Assembly: GCA_000415185.1 (NCBI GenBank)
Contig: KE351647.1
Span: 119,939-180,823 of the forward strand
DNA from: Enterococcus faecalis 13-SD-W-01
GTDB taxonomy: Bacteria; Bacillota; Bacilli; Lactobacillales; Enterococcaceae
Reading direction: 5' to 3'
DNA length: 60,885 bases
Below are positions 1 through 60,885 of this stretch, in pieces. Below the pieces are notes generated by a model. That model worked only from the letters and a program-made list of their open reading frames with translations. It searched no databases and had not been told where the DNA came from. A program made the translations under genes and the position numbers. Within the stretch, counting starts at the first letter, position 1. Each line of letters opens with the position of its first letter.

Positions 1-43
1 TCTTCTTTAATGCTCGGAGCTAAGCGGTTCATTCACAACCTCT
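1..43 (-). repeat. Nested-hairpin repeat, left part (cut by window edge)
   Basis: Read on the minus strand this starts with the box AGAGGTTGTGAA, followed by an outer arm (TGAACC), AGCTCC, GA and GCATTAA. It matches the unit at 40672 in 41 of its 43 bases. The rest of the unit lies outside the window. The bases GAG AGG TTG TGA at its start are also the last three codons and the stop of the oxidoreductase gene, so the repeat overlaps the coding end. Other copies are at 1441, 40672, 40794 and 60827. Confidence 0.85.
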
Positions 44-1440: not shown

Positions 1441-1562
1441 AGAGGTTGTGAACAAATCGTTTTGACCTGAGCATTAAGACTCTTATATCAGAAAAAATGG
1501 CTTTTCACATTTTTTTCTGATATAAGCTTAATGCCGAAGGTCAGATTTGTGAACACCGTTTA
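1441..1562 (+). repeat. Nested-hairpin repeat, full unit A
   Basis: The order is box AGAGGTTGTGAA, outer arm ACAAATC (pairs with GATTTGT), GACCT (pairs with AGGTC), internal loop GA/CGA, clamp GCATTAA (pairs with TTAATGC), a 17-bp top stem starting TTATATCAG, an apical loop near GCTTTTCA, then the return arms and box GAACACCGTTTA. It begins 2 nt after the rpsN stop. No T-run follows, so it is not a simple terminator. The variable stems differ in sequence from those of the units at 40672 and 40794 but keep pairing. Confidence 0.9.
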
Positions 1563-1565
1563 TAG

Positions 1566-1645
1566 AGAGGTCATTTTCTCAGTGCCTTGCTCCGAGCGTT
1601 AAGACTCTTTCCAACGGGGAAACAGCTTCTCATGTTTTTCCGTTG
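1566..1645 (+). repeat. Nested-hairpin repeat, terminal half-unit B
   Basis: Starts with AGAGGTCAT, three bases after unit A ends. It has GCTCCGAGCGTTAA in the place of the usual clamp, then a stem CAACGGGGAAACA (1612-1624) pairing with TGTTTTTCCGTTG (1633-1645) around the loop GCTTCTCA. The return arms and the GAACACCGTTTA box are missing. The half-unit at 40916 also begins AGAGGTCAT and also closes an array, so this looks like a distinct end-piece. Confidence 0.75.
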
Positions 1646-1672
1646 AAAAACAGCAAACAATTTTCATTTCCT

Positions 1673-10680: not shown

Positions 10681-10860
10681 CTTCTGTTGGTACTTGATAA
10701 ATCAAGCAGATAAACCCTTCTCCACAAAAGTTTTACCCGACACCCTGCAATCCGGCAGGCGATCAATGATCTTTGTGCCTCCAAAATCAATTAGGCGCTC
10801 TATCAAATAGAGGCCTTCTCGACCCGTCGCATGTCGTTAACTTTAACACATTCGACAAGA
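10681..10860 (-). ncRNA. Structured leader or small RNA of unknown family
   Basis: Minus-strand RNA between the GNAT stop and the terminator at 10638. Visible stems are TGTCG/CGACA (10832-10857), GGCCTCTATTTGATAGAGCGCC (10794-10815, 3+6 bp with loop TTG), GATCATTGATC (10761-10771) and CCTGC/GCAGG (10744-10759). It lacks the T-box bulge and the signatures of the riboswitches I know. It may be an attenuated leader of the downstream transporter-like gene, a separate small RNA, or a long 3' tail of the GNAT message. Confidence 0.45.
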
Positions 10861-25700: not shown

Positions 25701-27818
25701 TTATTTTTGGTTTTCTTTGTCGTCTGTCAATAGGACTTTTCTTGAAAGGTTCACACGACCTTGTTTGTCGATCTCTGTGACTTTCACTAATACTTCGTCG
25801 CCTAATTTGACAACATCTTCTACATTATTGACACGTTCATTTGCCAATTGAGAAATGTGGACCAAACCATCTTTTCCTTTGATCAAGTTGACGAATGCAC
25901 CGAATTTTTCGATACGTACGACTTTACCTAGGTAAACTTCGCCGACTTTCACTTCTTTTGTCAAATCTTCAATGATCTTGATAGCTTTTTTGATCATTTC
26001 TTTATCAGAAGAAGCAATACTTACTTTACCATCTTGATCAATGTCGATTTTCACACCAGTTTCTTCGATGATTCCGTTGATTGTGTCGCCACCTTTACCG
26101 ATCACGTCTTTGATCTTAGAAGGTTCGATTTGGATCATTTCGATTTTCGGTGCATATTGACTTAATTCTTCGCGTGGAGCAGCTAAAGTAGATGTCAATT
26201 CTTCTAGGATTTCCATACGTGCTTTTTTCGCTTGTTCCAATGCTTCAGTCAAGATTTGTTCAGTGATACCTTGGATTTTGATATCCATTTGCAACGCAGT
26301 GATACCTTCTTTAGTACCTGCTACTTTGAAGTCCATATCGCCTAGGTGGTCTTCTAAGCCTTGGATATCTGTTAAAATCGTGTAGTTTTCGCCATCAGAA
26401 ACTAAGCCCATCGCGATCCCTGCTACTGGTGCTTTGATTGGCACACCTGCATCCATCAAAGCCAATGTTCCGGCACAGATACTTGCTTGAGAAGAAGAAC
26501 CATTTGATTCTAAAACTTCTGCTACTAAACGAATTGTGTAAGGAAACTCTTCTTCTGAAGGAATTACTTGTGCCAATGCACGTTCACCTAACGCACCATG
26601 TCCGATTTCACGTCGGCCAGGTGATCCCGCACGACCTGTTGAACCAACAGAGAATTGAGGGAAGTTATAGTGATGGATGAATCGTTTGCTTACTTCTACA
26701 CCAAGACCATCAATGATTTGATGTTCTCCTAGTGGCGCTAATGTACATGCAGACAAGGCTTGTGTTTGTCCGCGCGTAAATAGACCTGAACCATGGACAC
26801 GAGGAAGTAAAGATACTTCTGAAGAAAGCGGACGGATCTCATCTAATTTACGTCCATCTGGGCGGATTTTATCGATCGTAATCAATTCACGGACTACGTC
26901 TTTTTCCAAGTCTTCAGCAATTTGTTTTACTTCTTTCATCAATTGCGCTTCGTCTTCATGCTCTGCAAATTTTTCTGCATAAGCTTCTATCACAGATTCT
27001 TTTACTTTCTCGATATTGTCTTCACGAGCAAGTTTTTCTTCTGTCATAACAGCTGTTTTCATTGTGTCGTAAGAAGCAGCGAAAATCTCTTTTTTCAAAT
27101 CTGCATCTACTTGAAGTAATTTTACTTCCATTTTTTCTTTGCCGACTGCTTGAACGATTTCTTCTTGGAAAGCAACAAGTTCTTTGATTGCATCAAAACC
27201 GAAAAGCAAAGCACCAAGCATATCTTCTTCAGATACTTCTTTCGCGCCGCTTTCTACCATGTTGATTGCTTTTTTCGTACCGGCAACTGTCAATTCGATG
27301 TCTGTTTGTTCTGCTTGTTCCACTGTTGGGTTCAAGACATATTCACCATTTACACGGCCAACTTCAACACCTGCGATTGGGCCATCAAATGGAATATCTG
27401 AAATACTTAAAGCAAGAGAAGAACCTAGCATTGCTGCCATTGCTGGTGAACAATCTGTTTCTACACTCATCACGATGTTTGTGATTTGGACTTCGTTACG
27501 GAAACCTTCTGCAAACATTGGACGGATCGGACGGTCGATCAAGCGAGCAGTCAATGTTGCTTCTGTACTTGGACGTCCTTCACGTTTGATAAAACCTCCA
27601 GGGATTTTACCAGCAGCGTACATTTTTTCTTCGTAGTTGATCGTCAATGGGAAAAAGTCTGTATCTTTGGCTTCTTTTGAGGCAACAGCTGCACTTAAAA
27701 CTACAGTATCTCCGTAGCGGACCAAAACTGCTCCATTTGCTTGTTTTGCCAATTGTCCGATTTCAACTTGTAACGGACGGCCGCCCCATGTCGTTTTAAA
27801 AACTTGTTTTTCTGACAT
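25701..27818 (-). CDS. pnp: Polyribonucleotide nucleotidyltransferase (PNPase)
   Basis: A 3'-to-5' phosphorolytic exoribonuclease of 705 residues that acts in mRNA decay. Two RNase PH-like domains (about 1-230 and 310-540, the second with [15 protein letters not shown]) flank an all-helical region. A KH domain ([16 protein letters not shown], near 560) and an S1 domain ([18 protein letters not shown], near 625) follow. AAGGAGAAA precedes the ATG. It lies after rpsO on the same strand with a terminator and a long leader hairpin between, as in other bacteria where PNPase controls its own message. Confidence 0.97.
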
Positions 27819-27852
27819 AATTTCTCCTTTTCTCCTGTGAAAAGCAAGACGC

Positions 27853-33107: not shown

Positions 33108-33290
33108 CGAGATACCTCAATCAATGAGGTAGAGGTCGCGAGAATCATTAAACTTGTGGAGTGAAGCAAACACGTCGAAGCAAGGCTAGGGAGGATCGCC
33201 GAAATGTAAACTTTTTTGCTTGGAGTTTATGTTGGGACGTAAGTTAACAGCTTACGGACTGTCTTAGCAGTGATGCTAAGTTGCGCTATG
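33108..33290 (+). promoter_or_regulatory. Lysine riboswitch (L box)
   Basis: The core shows the class-specific stretches TAGAGGTCGCGA (33130-33141, cf. AGAGGUGCGA), GGGAGGATCGCCGAAATG (33189-33206, cf. GCCGAAGCAAAU) and TTGGGACGTAAG...CTTACGGACTGTC (33233-33263), then GCTAAG and GCGCTATG. A TTGACA (33054-33059) lies 50 nt upstream. The region from 33291 to the start codon at 33439 is the expression platform; I cannot resolve its terminator with certainty. It predicts that the downstream ABC system is switched off by lysine. Confidence 0.93.
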
Positions 33291-33438
33291 TTTTGTGAGA
33301 GGTTTATCGACCTACGAAAATCCCAGCGGCCTTTTTAGTTACATAAAATGGTCGTTTTTTGTTTTAAAGATAAGCAGCTGCAATTCATGTCAATCAGACC
33401 ACTCGTGCATTATGCAGAAAAAGAAGAGGAGAAAGACT

Positions 33439-35034
33439 ATGAAAAAAAATTTTGTTTCAGTTACAGTACTATTTGCATTTATTTTTTCACTTATCGGACT
33501 AAGCGGAAATGCGGCTGCCGACGAACAAACCCCTGATAATCAATTCCGCGTAGGTATGGAGGCTGGTTATGCACCATTCAACTGGTCACAACAAACAGAC
33601 GCGAATAATGCTTGGCCTATCCAAGGTCAAAATAGTTATGCTGGCGGTTATGATGTTCAAATCGCCAAAAAAGTAGCAGAAGGACTTGGTAAAGAATTGG
33701 TCATCGTCCAAACAAAATGGGACGGCCTTCCCCCTGCCCTTCAATCCGGTAAAATCGATGCGATCATCGCTGGCATGAGCCCCACAGCTGAGCGTCGAAA
33801 AGAAATCGACTTTACAGAACCTTATTATGAATCTCATTTGGTTGTGGTGGTAAAAAAAGACAGCGAATTTGCTGATGCAAAAAGCTTAGAAGATTTGGCT
33901 AATGCAAAAATCACTGCTCAGTTGAATACTTTCCATTATACAGTGATCGATCAAATCCCAAATGTCCAAAAACAACAAGCAATGGATAACTTTTCTGCTA
34001 TGCGGACAGCCCTTGCATCTGGAATGATCGACGGCTATGTCAGTGAACGTCCTGAAGGGGTTACTGCTACTAGCGTCAATCCTGATTTGAAAATGTTGGA
34101 ATTCAGCGATGAAGCAGGCTTCCAAACAAATCCTGAAGATGTACAAATCGCTGTTGGTATGAGAAAAGGCGATCCAGATGTCCAAAAAGTCAACGAGATC
34201 CTTGCTGGTATTTCTGAAGATGAACGTACACAGATCATGGACCAAGCAATCAAAGATCAACCTGCATCTACAGAAGACAGTGAAGAAGAGTCTGGTATTT
34301 TGACAGATTTCAAAAATATTTGGGATCAATACGGCAACATGTTTTTACGCGGAGCTGGTTTAACCCTATTTATCGCTCTTATTGGTACAGTAGTCGGAAC
34401 AACTTTAGGTTTATTGATTGGTGTCTTCCGTTCGATTCCTAACTCTGAAAATCCAATTGCCCGTTTCTTCCAAAAAGTCGTCAACATCCTTCTATCGATC
34501 TATGTAGAAATTTTCCGTGGTACACCGATGATGGTACAAGCAATGGTTATTTTCTACGGATTAGCGTTAGCATTTGGTATTTCCTTAAACCGAACGATTG
34601 CAGCTTTGTTTATCGTTTCAGTGAACACAGGTGCTTACATGACAGAAATCGTCCGAGGCGGGATTTTCGCAGTGGATGAAGGACAATTTGAAGCAGCACA
34701 AGCAATCGGTATGACACATAGTCAAACCATGCGTAAAGTCGTGATTCCGCAAGTCTTGCGAAATATCTTACCTGCGACAGGAAACGAGTTCGTTATCAAT
34801 ATCAAAGATACAGCTGTCTTGAGTGTTATTGGTGTAGCCGATCTATTCTTCCAAGGGAATTCAGCTTCTGGCGCGAACTTCCAATTCTTCCAAACATTTG
34901 CGATCGTTGGTGTGATCTACTTGGTTATGACATTTACGATTACGCAAATTTTACGTTATGTTGAGAAGAAAATCGACGGCCCTTCTTCCTATAGTAAAAT
35001 CGAAGAAGTCGACAACTCAAACTTGCAAGAATAA
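33439..35034 (+). CDS. Amino-acid ABC transporter, fused substrate-binding protein and permease (lysine predicted)
   Basis: 531 residues. The N-terminal signal sequence ends near NAAADEQ. A periplasmic-binding-protein-3 domain (about 35-275; RVGMEAGYAPFNW, GKIDAIIAGMSPTAERRKEI) is followed by a polar amino-acid permease domain (about 290-520) with the ATPase-contact loop EAAQAIGMTHSQTMRK. The start is ATG 33439, with AGAGGAGAAAG just before it; a longer frame would run back into the riboswitch and is not real. The lysine riboswitch upstream predicts uptake of lysine or another basic amino acid. The ATPase gene follows 12 nt later. Confidence 0.93.
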   Translation: MKKNFVSVTVLFAFIFSLIGLSGNAAADEQTPDNQFRVGMEAGYAPFNWSQQTDANNAWPIQGQNSYAGGYDVQIAKKVAEGLGKELVIVQTKWDGLPPALQSGKIDAIIAGMSPTAERRKEIDFTEPYYESHLVVVVKKDSEFADAKSLEDLANAKITAQLNTFHYTVIDQIPNVQKQQAMDNFSAMRTALASGMIDGYVSERPEGVTATSVNPDLKMLEFSDEAGFQTNPEDVQIAVGMRKGDPDVQKVNEILAGISEDERTQIMDQAIKDQPASTEDSEEESGILTDFKNIWDQYGNMFLRGAGLTLFIALIGTVVGTTLGLLIGVFRSIPNSENPIARFFQKVVNILLSIYVEIFRGTPMMVQAMVIFYGLALAFGISLNRTIAALFIVSVNTGAYMTEIVRGGIFAVDEGQFEAAQAIGMTHSQTMRKVVIPQVLRNILPATGNEFVINIKDTAVLSVIGVADLFFQGNSASGANFQFFQTFAIVGVIYLVMTFTITQILRYVEKKIDGPSSYSKIEEVDNSNLQE

Positions 35035-39075: not shown

Positions 39076-39156
39076 TTGATAAAGAACACCGGTATTCTCT
39101 GACTGACAAAAAAACGAAAACAAGTTAAAATGTCACAGATACAAGGAGGAAAAAAC

Positions 39157-40668
39157 ATGCTTTATGAAGAGCTATTGATGGATACATCTACACTTTCAAA
39201 GTTCCACTTATTCAAATATTTAAAAAAAGCAGAACATGCCGCATTGTCTGCCGCTCAAATCGCAGAAACGATGCAACTGAACTATCAGCAGACCATCGTC
39301 ATTCTGACAAGCATCGAGCAGGACTTGGAACAACTCTCACCTGACACTAAAAAAATATTGACAGGTGCAGGGAAAATCGACCTGACAGCTATCACCACGA
39401 CAATTGATGGTTACCGCTACTTCCTTTTGAAGAATTCGACTGCTTTTCAATTCATCTTGTATTTATTGAATGACGCCGAACCAACGATTGAAAAATTTTG
39501 TGAACTTTACTATATAAGCCGTTCAACTGTCTCAAGAAAACTGGCTAATCTAAAACAATATCTAAAAGGTTACGGTCTTCGATTTACGTACAACGAAGTG
39601 GACTTGGTAGGTGATGAACGACTGGTTCGTTTGGCTCTTTTTGACTTTTTGTGGTTAAGTTCTCGTGGACTAGAGTGGCCATTGGAGATACCAGAAAAAC
39701 AAGCGGAAGAACTAGCTGAACATTTCCGCCCTTATTTCTCTTCTTCAGAAACTTATCTGGGGCATCTGGAATTAAAATTGCTGATGGGGATCATGATCGC
39801 GCGCCAGCAAAACAGACATTTTGCTGCGTATGACAAAGCGTATGATTTTCTAATGGCTGAAAACAGCTACTATCCTTTTGAAAATCTGCTGCCTGTTTTC
39901 CAGCAAAATAGTCGTTCCGACATCATCATTTCGGATGAACAAAGTCGTGCAGAAAGCAGTTTTGTTTTTTTCATTGCACATATCGTTCCTTCTTTTACAT
40001 CAAGAGAAAACAGAGTTCTTGAACATACGCTTCGGGATTTTACATCAAAACCGAATCCTGTTTACCAACTTGTCGATAACTTTTTATCTTTTGCTAAAAC
40101 AACTTTTTTAGAAGAATCCTTTGAAATCTTTGATAATCCATTACTTATCGGAAATATGCTGCATGTCACGTTTGCTTTTCATGTCTTAAAGCAGCCGTTT
40201 CCTAATGTGCAGAGCCTAGTTATCCAGCCGCATCAAAATAAGTCGATGATCGATTATCTGGAAAACCGGATAACAGATTTTTTGAAAACTCAAAGTACGC
40301 AGGAATATCCTTTTTTAACAGAAAAAACAATTCCTCTGCTAAGCAAAACATACAAAAATCTGTTAGCACCTTATTATAAACATATGAAGATTTCGCAATC
40401 CTTGAAAGTCGGCATCGCTATTGAACCGAACTACTTGCTTGTTTACAATCTGGAACAATTTTTATCTGATTTGCAGTTTGCAGAAGCAGAACCATTTCTC
40501 CAATACAAAGCAGATACTTATGATTTGATTATCAGCTCTTCACCAATGATTGAAAAGCTTTATCCGACACAACACGTCTATTTATGGGACCATACATATG
40601 AACATGTTGAACTTGCAAAATTGTATAAGAAATTAAGACAGCTTTATGTGGAGAAGAATCGGTTTTGA
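39157..40668 (+). CDS. Mga-type transcriptional regulator
   Basis: 503 residues. An N-terminal winged-helix region (about 15-60, SAAQIAETMQLNYQQTIVIL) is followed by the Mga HTH domain (about 100-160, KFCELYYISRSTVSRKLANLKQYL). A PRD-like middle and an EIIB-like C-terminal part (VGIAIEPNYLL near 435) follow. It is the general architecture of streptococcal Mga and enterococcal homologues such as MafR. AAGGAGGAAAAAA lies before the ATG at 39157. No target operon is adjacent on the same strand. Its stop is followed 3 nt later by an array of nested-hairpin repeats. Confidence 0.85.
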   Translation: MLYEELLMDTSTLSKFHLFKYLKKAEHAALSAAQIAETMQLNYQQTIVILTSIEQDLEQLSPDTKKILTGAGKIDLTAITTTIDGYRYFLLKNSTAFQFILYLLNDAEPTIEKFCELYYISRSTVSRKLANLKQYLKGYGLRFTYNEVDLVGDERLVRLALFDFLWLSSRGLEWPLEIPEKQAEELAEHFRPYFSSSETYLGHLELKLLMGIMIARQQNRHFAAYDKAYDFLMAENSYYPFENLLPVFQQNSRSDIIISDEQSRAESSFVFFIAHIVPSFTSRENRVLEHTLRDFTSKPNPVYQLVDNFLSFAKTTFLEESFEIFDNPLLIGNMLHVTFAFHVLKQPFPNVQSLVIQPHQNKSMIDYLENRITDFLKTQSTQEYPFLTEKTIPLLSKTYKNLLAPYYKHMKISQSLKVGIAIEPNYLLVYNLEQFLSDLQFAEAEPFLQYKADTYDLIISSSPMIEKLYPTQHVYLWDHTYEHVELAKLYKKLRQLYVEKNRF

Positions 40669-40671
40669 TAA

Positions 40672-40790
40672 AGAGGTTGTGAATGAACCGTTCAGCTCCG
40701 AGCATTAAAGAAGAATTTTGTAAAACAGCTTCTCATGTTTTGCAAAATTTTGAGTTAATGCCGAAGGAGCTGGTTCATGAACACCGTTTA
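40672..40790 (+). repeat. Nested-hairpin repeat, full unit C
   Basis: Box AGAGGTTGTGAA, outer arm TGAACC (pairs with GGTTCA), AGCTCC (with GGAGCT), internal loop GA/CGAA, clamp GCATTAA (with TTAATGC), top stem AATTTTGTAAAACA (with TGTTTTGCAAAATT, one G-U), apical loop GCTTCTCA, box GAACACCGTTTA. It starts 3 nt after the Mga-type gene stop. It is the best-formed copy in the window. Confidence 0.92.
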
Positions 40791-40793
40791 GAA

Positions 40794-40912
40794 AGAGGTT
40801 GTGAAAGTGATGTTCTGCTTCAAGAATTAAGAATGAGAAATTAGAAATAGCTCTTCCTATTTTTAATTTCTCAGACTTAATTCCGTAGAAGCAATCACTT
40901 GAACACCGTTTA
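40794..40912 (+). repeat. Nested-hairpin repeat, full unit D
   Basis: Three bases after unit C and the same length, 119 bp. Outer arm AAGTGAT (with ATCACTT), TGCTTC (with GAAGCA), internal loop AA/CGTA, clamp changed to GAATTAAG with matching CTTAATTC, top stem TGAGAAATTAGAAATAG (with CTATTTTTAATTTCTCA), box GAACACCGTTTA. The clamp change is compensated on both arms relative to units A and C. Confidence 0.92.
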
Positions 40913-40915
40913 TTT

Positions 40916-40997
40916 AGAGGTCATGACTAAAACGCTTCGTCTTGAGCATTTAAGAGAAAAAACCGAAAAACAGCTTTTTGTGTTTTTCGGTTTTTTT
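40916..40997 (+). repeat. Nested-hairpin repeat, terminal half-unit E, ending as terminator
   Basis: Starts AGAGGTCAT like half-unit B, three bases after unit D. It contains CTTGAGCATTTAA, then AACCGAAAAACA (40961-40972) paired with TGTTTTTCGGTT (40981-40992) and T7. The return arms and 3' box are missing. Here the end-piece is clearly a rho-independent terminator for the array or for the Mga-type message. Confidence 0.8.
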
Positions 40998-60826: not shown

Positions 60827-60885
60827 AGAGGTTGTGAATGAACCGTTCAGCTCCAAGCAGTAACGAAAAAAACAGTAAAATAGCT
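60827..60885 (+). repeat. Nested-hairpin repeat, left part (cut by window end)
   Basis: AGAGGTTGTGAATGAACCGT and AGCTCC match unit C, then the clamp is changed (AAGCAGTAA instead of GAGCATTAA). A top-stem arm AAAAAACAGTAAAATAGCT runs to the window end at the start of the apical loop. It lies upstream of msrB on the opposite strand, so unlike the other clear copies it does not directly follow a visible stop codon. Confidence 0.85.

Follow-up and report, generated by a model that had tools for sequence, protein, structure and literature searches.

The window analyzed here, that is, the whole 60,885-nt stretch of DNA, carries nested-hairpin units, which are listed below with their scores against a covariance model derived from units A, C, and D and 53 other units.

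1..43, minus strand: partial unit, cut at the window start (model match)
1441..1563, plus strand: unit A, full nested-hairpin left module (119.3 bits)
1566..1650 (end approximate), plus strand: unit B, truncated (partial model match at 1608-1651)
40672..40791, plus strand: unit C, full left module (128.1 bits)
40794..40913, plus strand: unit D, full left module with both clamp arms altered (126.2 bits)
40916..40997, plus strand: unit E, truncated terminal half unit (35.8 bits)
60827..60885, plus strand: partial unit, cut at the window end and running on into an N stretch (locus L030)

Unit A begins 2 nt past the TAA of an 89-aa ORF (1169-1438), the C-terminal part of which presumably resembles ribosomal protein S14. 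Unit B combines the 5′ box, with its TTTTCTCAGTG arm, and an inner stem of the GTTGGAAA type, and a terminator follows at about 1672-1712. Unit C begins 3 nt past the TGA of a 512-aa ORF (39130-40668), a gene for which no match is listed in any of the 14 further genomes of the genus. The array at 40672-40997 is closed by unit E, whose inner stem and T run constitute a terminator-like hairpin. At the window start, a minus-strand ORF (33-986, 317 aa) enters the partial unit at 1-43 and terminates at the element's TGA (...ERL*).

A previous sequence-only reading had described units A, C, and D as sharing boxes, clamp, and loops around stems that vary. Both the sequence and the model bear this out at the positions given, the three units being full-length covariance-model matches of 119 to 128 bits, and the clamp of unit D is indeed changed on both arms (GAATTAA/TTAATTC). 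A search of the whole window against Rfam 15 returned three matches at or above the gathering score, none of them at the units, where relaxed thresholds produced only matches below that score. Elsewhere in the window, Rfam models match a lysine riboswitch (RF00168, 84 bits) at 33122-33296, immediately 5′ of the ORF at 33295-35034; rliD at 27668-27849 on the plus strand, facing the start of a minus-strand ORF (25701-27818); and the Enterococcus sRNA Ref68 at 10717-10831 on the minus strand.

Family size and covarying fold

The left-end pattern AGAGGTYRTGA has 133 matches in the genome to which the window belongs (hereafter the host genome) versus 5 for the reversed pattern; the family has about 130 left ends in this genome and is not a product of chance. 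Across 15 genomes of the genus, the host included, the count per genome ranges from 2 to 216. Runs of N interrupt several arrays in the host assembly (L015, L020, L026, L042, L045, and others), and unit counts there are lower bounds. Further copies occur in related genomes: the covariance model matches 80 of 105 Enterococcaceae genomes, representing 13 of 17 genera, when the best 34 candidates per genome are scored, and 76 of 395 genomes sampled across the order, other families included, when the best 9 are scored. Among 15 named genomes, for each of which the best 150 candidates were scored, 12 match. Matches number at least 150 in E. durans, 148 in E. lactis, 136 in E. mundtii, 127 in E. villorum, 60 in E. 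italicus, 42 in E. caccae, 34 in Vagococcus fluvialis, 28 in E. moraviensis, 12 in E. gallinarum, 5 in E. pallens, 3 in Lacticaseibacillus saniviri, and 1 in Desemzia incerta; none occur among the best 150 candidates of Tetragenococcus solitarius, Trichococcus ilyis, or Granulicatella balaenopterae. The host QueA is 90-92% identical to QueA of E. mundtii, E. durans, E. villorum, and E. lactis. The earlier suggestion of an intergenic enterococcal repeat is supported, and the family is larger than the three units first noticed.

Fifty-six full units of the host genome, 46 to 98% identical to one another (median 63%), were folded jointly with RNAalifold into a single long hairpin of 41 pairs, 32 of which show changes on both sides. 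Pairing was formed in 97.7% of the paired cells versus 71.5% (sd 0.7) when the 3′ letters were shuffled, with 0 of 500 shuffles reaching 97.7%, and it fell to 40-48% when the partners were slid by 1-3 columns; the stems that were said to vary freely while remaining complementary do so. AGAGGT and the bulged G19 are invariant across the 56 units, and the internal and apical loops are nearly constant. In other genomes, 69 matches at 52 loci have 96.5% of cells paired and both-side changes in 36 of the 41 pairs, values biased toward the model structure given that this alignment was fitted to the model. Covariation in the host and in other genomes supports the proposal that the folded shape is what is kept, and this very strong signal lies outside every Rfam family. 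G-U pairs account for 4.8% of formed pairs, which is low for an RNA and weakly favors folded DNA as the relevant form.

Terminal repeats and relationship to known elements

On two E. faecium plasmids, tandem left modules are followed by a terminal stretch that closes with the 5′ box in reverse complement (TTCACAACCTCT in L303; AGAGGTTGTGACTTG...AGTCACGACCTCT in L304). Likewise, a hairpin of the kind AAGGGACTGTGACA...TGTCACAGTCCCTT comes after at least 5 of 25 arrays in genome G003. A complete copy is accordingly L(n)-R, where L is the unit of the sequence-only reading. In the host genome, a right end lies behind 4 of 44 countable arrays (17 others were dropped for N or edge), about chance level in three of them at an expected 3% or so per search interval, and L019 is the sole convincing host array with a right end. 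The minimal element at L019 1539 (minus strand) consists of AGAGGTTGTGACA joined directly to a near reverse complement of itself, the two making a single short terminator.

The ends of complete copies resemble those of IS1182-family insertion sequences of about 1.8 kb. The element has AGAGGTTGTGACAGAAGT at its left end and, read inward, AGGGACTGTGACAAA (G003) or GAGCGTGGGACAAAA (G015) at its right end; the IS ends are AGGGACTGTGACATAAG / AGGAGGCGTGACATAAG (G005, E. lactis), AGGGACTGTGACAT / AGGAGGCGTGACAT (G041), AGGGGCTGTGACATAA (G069), AGAGGCTGGGACAAA (G096), AGAGAGTGGGACAATA (G004, G073), and GAGCTTGGGACATAAGTC (G070), with similar ends in G012 and G083. The likeness extends to AGGGACTGTGACA on both. 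In E. lactis, G003, G015, and the two E. faecium plasmids, both ends of complete copies are IS1182-like, and the host genome has the left end of this type, with a right end in the 4 of 44 arrays noted above. A second IS1182 type, of 1.5 kb, has unrelated ends (CAGACTGTAGACAAAG); two transposases, one per IS type, fit the NCBIfam IS1182 model at 1e-123 and 4e-138. A script reading of 33 IS loci assigned element-like ends to 8 (7 distinct places) and ends of the other type to 11. Hand reading added L244 and L245 to the element-like set; L268 has other ends, and the rest are without convincing ends.

At E<=0.001, the IS1182 model finds matches in 70 of 105 genomes, along with 6 of 14 control genomes; in 30 of the 105 its own cut-off is exceeded. 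Model searches found no IS1182-family match in the host genome or in G015, and PF13751 likewise found none in the host; mobilization would therefore have come from elsewhere or belong to the past. Among the ISs examined, none has an end that contains a left module. At L204, next to a G003 array, the remnant of an IS1182 element was considered as such a case and rejected, as it belongs to the other IS type. The 1.5-kb type adjoins terminators, with a terminator stem-loop on both sides of the IS (L237, L240, L241; G011, G009, G014).

IS1272, a member of the IS1182 family, replaces stem-loops on transposition and, in the four cases close to a gene, lies directly 3′ of it; its 25-bp left end is sometimes duplicated in tandem (PMC5678879). 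The units resemble this family in their terminal repeats (those of the 1.8-kb enterococcal members), in stem-loop replacement (seen at one orthologous site), and in a site just behind genes, and tandem duplication of the left end is possible in both. They differ in lacking a transposase gene and in having a highly structured left module of 120 bp, compared with the 25-bp left end duplicated in IS1272. A little-studied enterococcal repeat is thereby linked to ISs that transpose in an unusual way, by replacing stem-loops.

Members of an E. faecalis type were delimited in G015, a genome of another genus with 28 covariance-model matches at E<=0.1. E. faecalis plasmid NZ_CP143580.1 matches one of these elements at 14 places with 97.2% identity, and a record whose host is E. 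faecalis is identical to it over 221 bases; because of this near-identity we take G015 to be E. faecalis. The layout is GAGGTCGGGAC...CCGCCGTTTAT followed by a second hairpin ending GTCCCACGCTC. Fifteen of 20 delimited elements are 170 bp long with two adjacent hairpins, and the other five, at 223-335 bp, have extra modules. The bases flanking one end pair with those flanking the other (mean 4.15 versus 2.26 for mismatched partners), by at least 5 bp in 6 of the 20 elements versus 9% of controls, and the observed sum was reached in 0 of 10,000 permutations. The E. faecalis-type element is also matched by 53 records labelled Listeria phage; the three examined are about 80% identical and carry no annotation.

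These features recall EFAR, which Venditti et al. reportedly described in 2007 as mostly 170 bp with two stem-loops and 16 modules, and whose targets are said to be stem-loops with remnants of the stem retained. By that reported definition, with G015 standing in for E. faecalis, the E. faecalis-type members fit EFAR / Efa-1. In PMC2267715, Efa-1 of E. faecalis is given as 163 bp with 65 copies and an adjacent pair of stem-loops, and PMC3733652 counts "EFAR elements in Enterococci" among MITEs; EFAR is absent from the text of a MITE review (PMC10969869). A search weak on subscription literature turned up no published statement linking EFAR to IS1182, and we make no claim that the link is unpublished.

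The family as a whole is EFAR-like, and the units in the window are a variant of it. Judged by G015, common to both are the sequence and fold family of the left module, an intergenic location, and a modular build: arrays of 1-4 units and half units occur, and an inserted module of roughly 50 bp is shared by G000 and G015. Stem-loop targets with stem remnants at the ends are seen in G015 and at one E. lactis site. The window units are filed as a variant because they are not paired stem-loops of 163-170 bp and mostly lack the right end; they are instead tandem single nested hairpins of about 120 bp, mostly without the second hairpin, which abut stop codons. The statement that no named family could be recognized is not upheld, given that the E. 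faecalis-type members fit EFAR / Efa-1; a match to a described element, which the earlier reading had named as refuting it, holds at the level of the superfamily, although the window units themselves differ.

Insertion sites, stop codons, and the preferred reading

Genome G003 is 94% identical to E. lactis (G005) across a 1.4-kb gene and shares about 150 kb of gene order with it, in which a script lists 6 arrays in each; 10 rows were comparable and represent, in our reading, seven distinct sites. Six of these differ in span, and one is equal. The differences are 122, 123, 125, and 245 bases at four sites (one or two units), 378 bases at another, and about 1.5 kb at the last. This comparison also provides an orthologous filled/empty pair for the repeat family. 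A plain terminator in G003 (z -8.0 as DNA) corresponds in E. lactis to an array of three left modules plus a right hairpin, which occupies the position of the inner stem-loop while the outer stem arms are retained; this is stem-loop replacement, as in IS1272 transposition. The array begins within the terminator stem and not at the stop codon. It is the one clean empty site read, G003 versus E. lactis, a comparison that lies outside the window's own copies; for these, the 3′ flanks of queA relatives are too distant to give a close empty site.

In the host genome, a same-strand gene lies upstream of 51 of 63 array starts, and one start lies between divergent genes. Of the 63 starts, 44 lie between -11 and +6 nt of a stop codon on their own strand, or 43 of 61 when two places counted twice are left out; the 63 also include a few probable chance matches (L017, L056). 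The junction is T|AG in 16 starts and TA|A in 7, letters of native stop and element being indistinguishable at such TAG and TAA junctions. At 6 starts (5 distinct), the frame enters the element and ends at its TGA, yielding a C-terminus of ...RL or ...RS. Host copies sit at stop codons and seem often to supply part of them. In G003, 12 of 25 arrays start at -11 to +6, 10 of these at 0 to +4. The idea that the abutment merely follows the position of native terminators is not supported: in a small and strict control (32 terminators among 273 stops), 8 of 32 host terminators start within 6 nt of the stop. Under a strict rule, 23 of 44 countable arrays have a terminator-like hairpin near their end, which in some is the inner stem of the closing half unit. 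Among the queA relatives listed, all 31 have an intact stop and 2 have an element within 300 nt: Enterococcus sp. ZJ1622 with units 13 nt 3′ of the queA stop, and Enterococcus sp. 5H with an element in reverse.

We consider it likely that each unit represents the left-end module of a terminator-replacing MITE of EFAR type, with the terminal repeats of IS1182-family insertion sequences of about 1.8 kb; a non-autonomous mobile element, one of the roles proposed earlier, is the best reading. A transposase acting in trans would move complete copies, consisting of one or several left modules and a right-end hairpin, into palindromes. The main target would be the terminator behind a gene, whose inner stem-loop would be swapped out and its outer stem retained, and left modules would multiply in tandem by whole-unit steps. 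The stems would vary and still pair since the module acts in the folded state, which the transposase probably sees as a cruciform or as single-stranded DNA; its transcript would also fold, as 3′-UTR RNA. Most arrays of the host genome lack a right end and run from stop codon to terminator, the latter often made by the last half unit. This reading draws on the family itself, its covariation, the likeness of ends, one replaced terminator, and unit-number differences among relatives, and we infer the enzyme, DNA as the selected form, and the origin of the stop-codon abutment. Several observations count against it: the host genome and G015 show no IS1182-family match, right ends are rare in host arrays, the left end duplicated in IS1272 is 25 bp and not 120, no IS with a left module in its end came to light, and the clean empty site is a single one. 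Palindromic targets predict neither the sense orientation (51 of 63) nor the abutment, which also count against it; our guess is that repeated replacement at one palindrome consumes the spacer up to the stop.

Both of these features would sit well with a function in RNA, in which a stable 3′-UTR hairpin at the stop blocks 3′-5′ decay or alters ribosome release and mobility is secondary. E. coli REPs close to stop codons have been described in such decay-blocking or ribosome-release roles, and the 51 of 63 sense placements, the 44 of 63 starts at stop codons, the conserved GA/CGAA and apical loops, and the terminator-like hairpins of 23 of 44 arrays all point this way. The 4.8% G-U share, however, speaks against it, as does the presence of an element within 300 nt of queA in just 2 of 31 listed relatives. 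Unit number differs at six of seven orthologous sites, and therefore a fixed number of units seems not to be required by any gene. We regard this account as unlikely; the mRNA 3′-end protection proposed earlier is unneeded for the dispersal, the unit-number differences, or the terminal repeats, and is compatible with them.

Less probable still is covariation without selection on the fold, in which palindrome arms copy each other via template switching in replication and repair. Long perfect stems are substrates of template-switch correction, and the arms here are near-perfectly Watson-Crick with few G-U pairs; yet the GTT bulge and the GA/CGAA internal loop have stayed uncorrected and fixed in 56 units, and pairing persists across genera. 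Template switching may nevertheless contribute to the covariation. The resemblance to REP/BIME repeats, for which mobilization would depend on a RAYT, a tyrosine transposase of the IS200-IS605 kind, is limited to high-copy, often clustered palindromes at gene 3′ ends that are thought to be mobile. The unit ends read (AGAGGT...CCGTTTA) bear neither a GTAG nor a CGTC tag and fit IS1182 repeats, and units of about 120 nt are much longer than the 20-40 bp given for REPs in PMC3733652. We hold a RAYT origin to be highly improbable.

An extension of the terminator-replacing MITE is more tentative, and we doubt it more than we credit it: the whole 120-bp module, beyond the 13-bp terminal repeat, might be read as a DNA cruciform by an IS1182-type transposase and serve in the host genome as a portable gene ending that brings a stop (TAG or TGA) and often a terminator. 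If so, dozens of genes would owe their present 3′ ends to mobile DNA. Two testable questions follow, namely, whether a transposase selects for folded DNA across a long hairpin and how a mobile hairpin that takes over stop codon and terminator affects expression. The arrays could also pass for sRNAs in enterococcal transcriptomes.

On many plasmids of E. faecium and E. lactis (H5, H8-H10, and others), the match overlaps a gene annotated as polysaccharide deacetylase, the frame of which the repeat may extend or end. Solitary terminators lacking the element box were also observed (L009-L060); in several of them the apical motif AAAACAGCTTTTCATGTTTT of the units' inner stem recurs, either directly or in reverse complement, as though this hairpin circulated alone.
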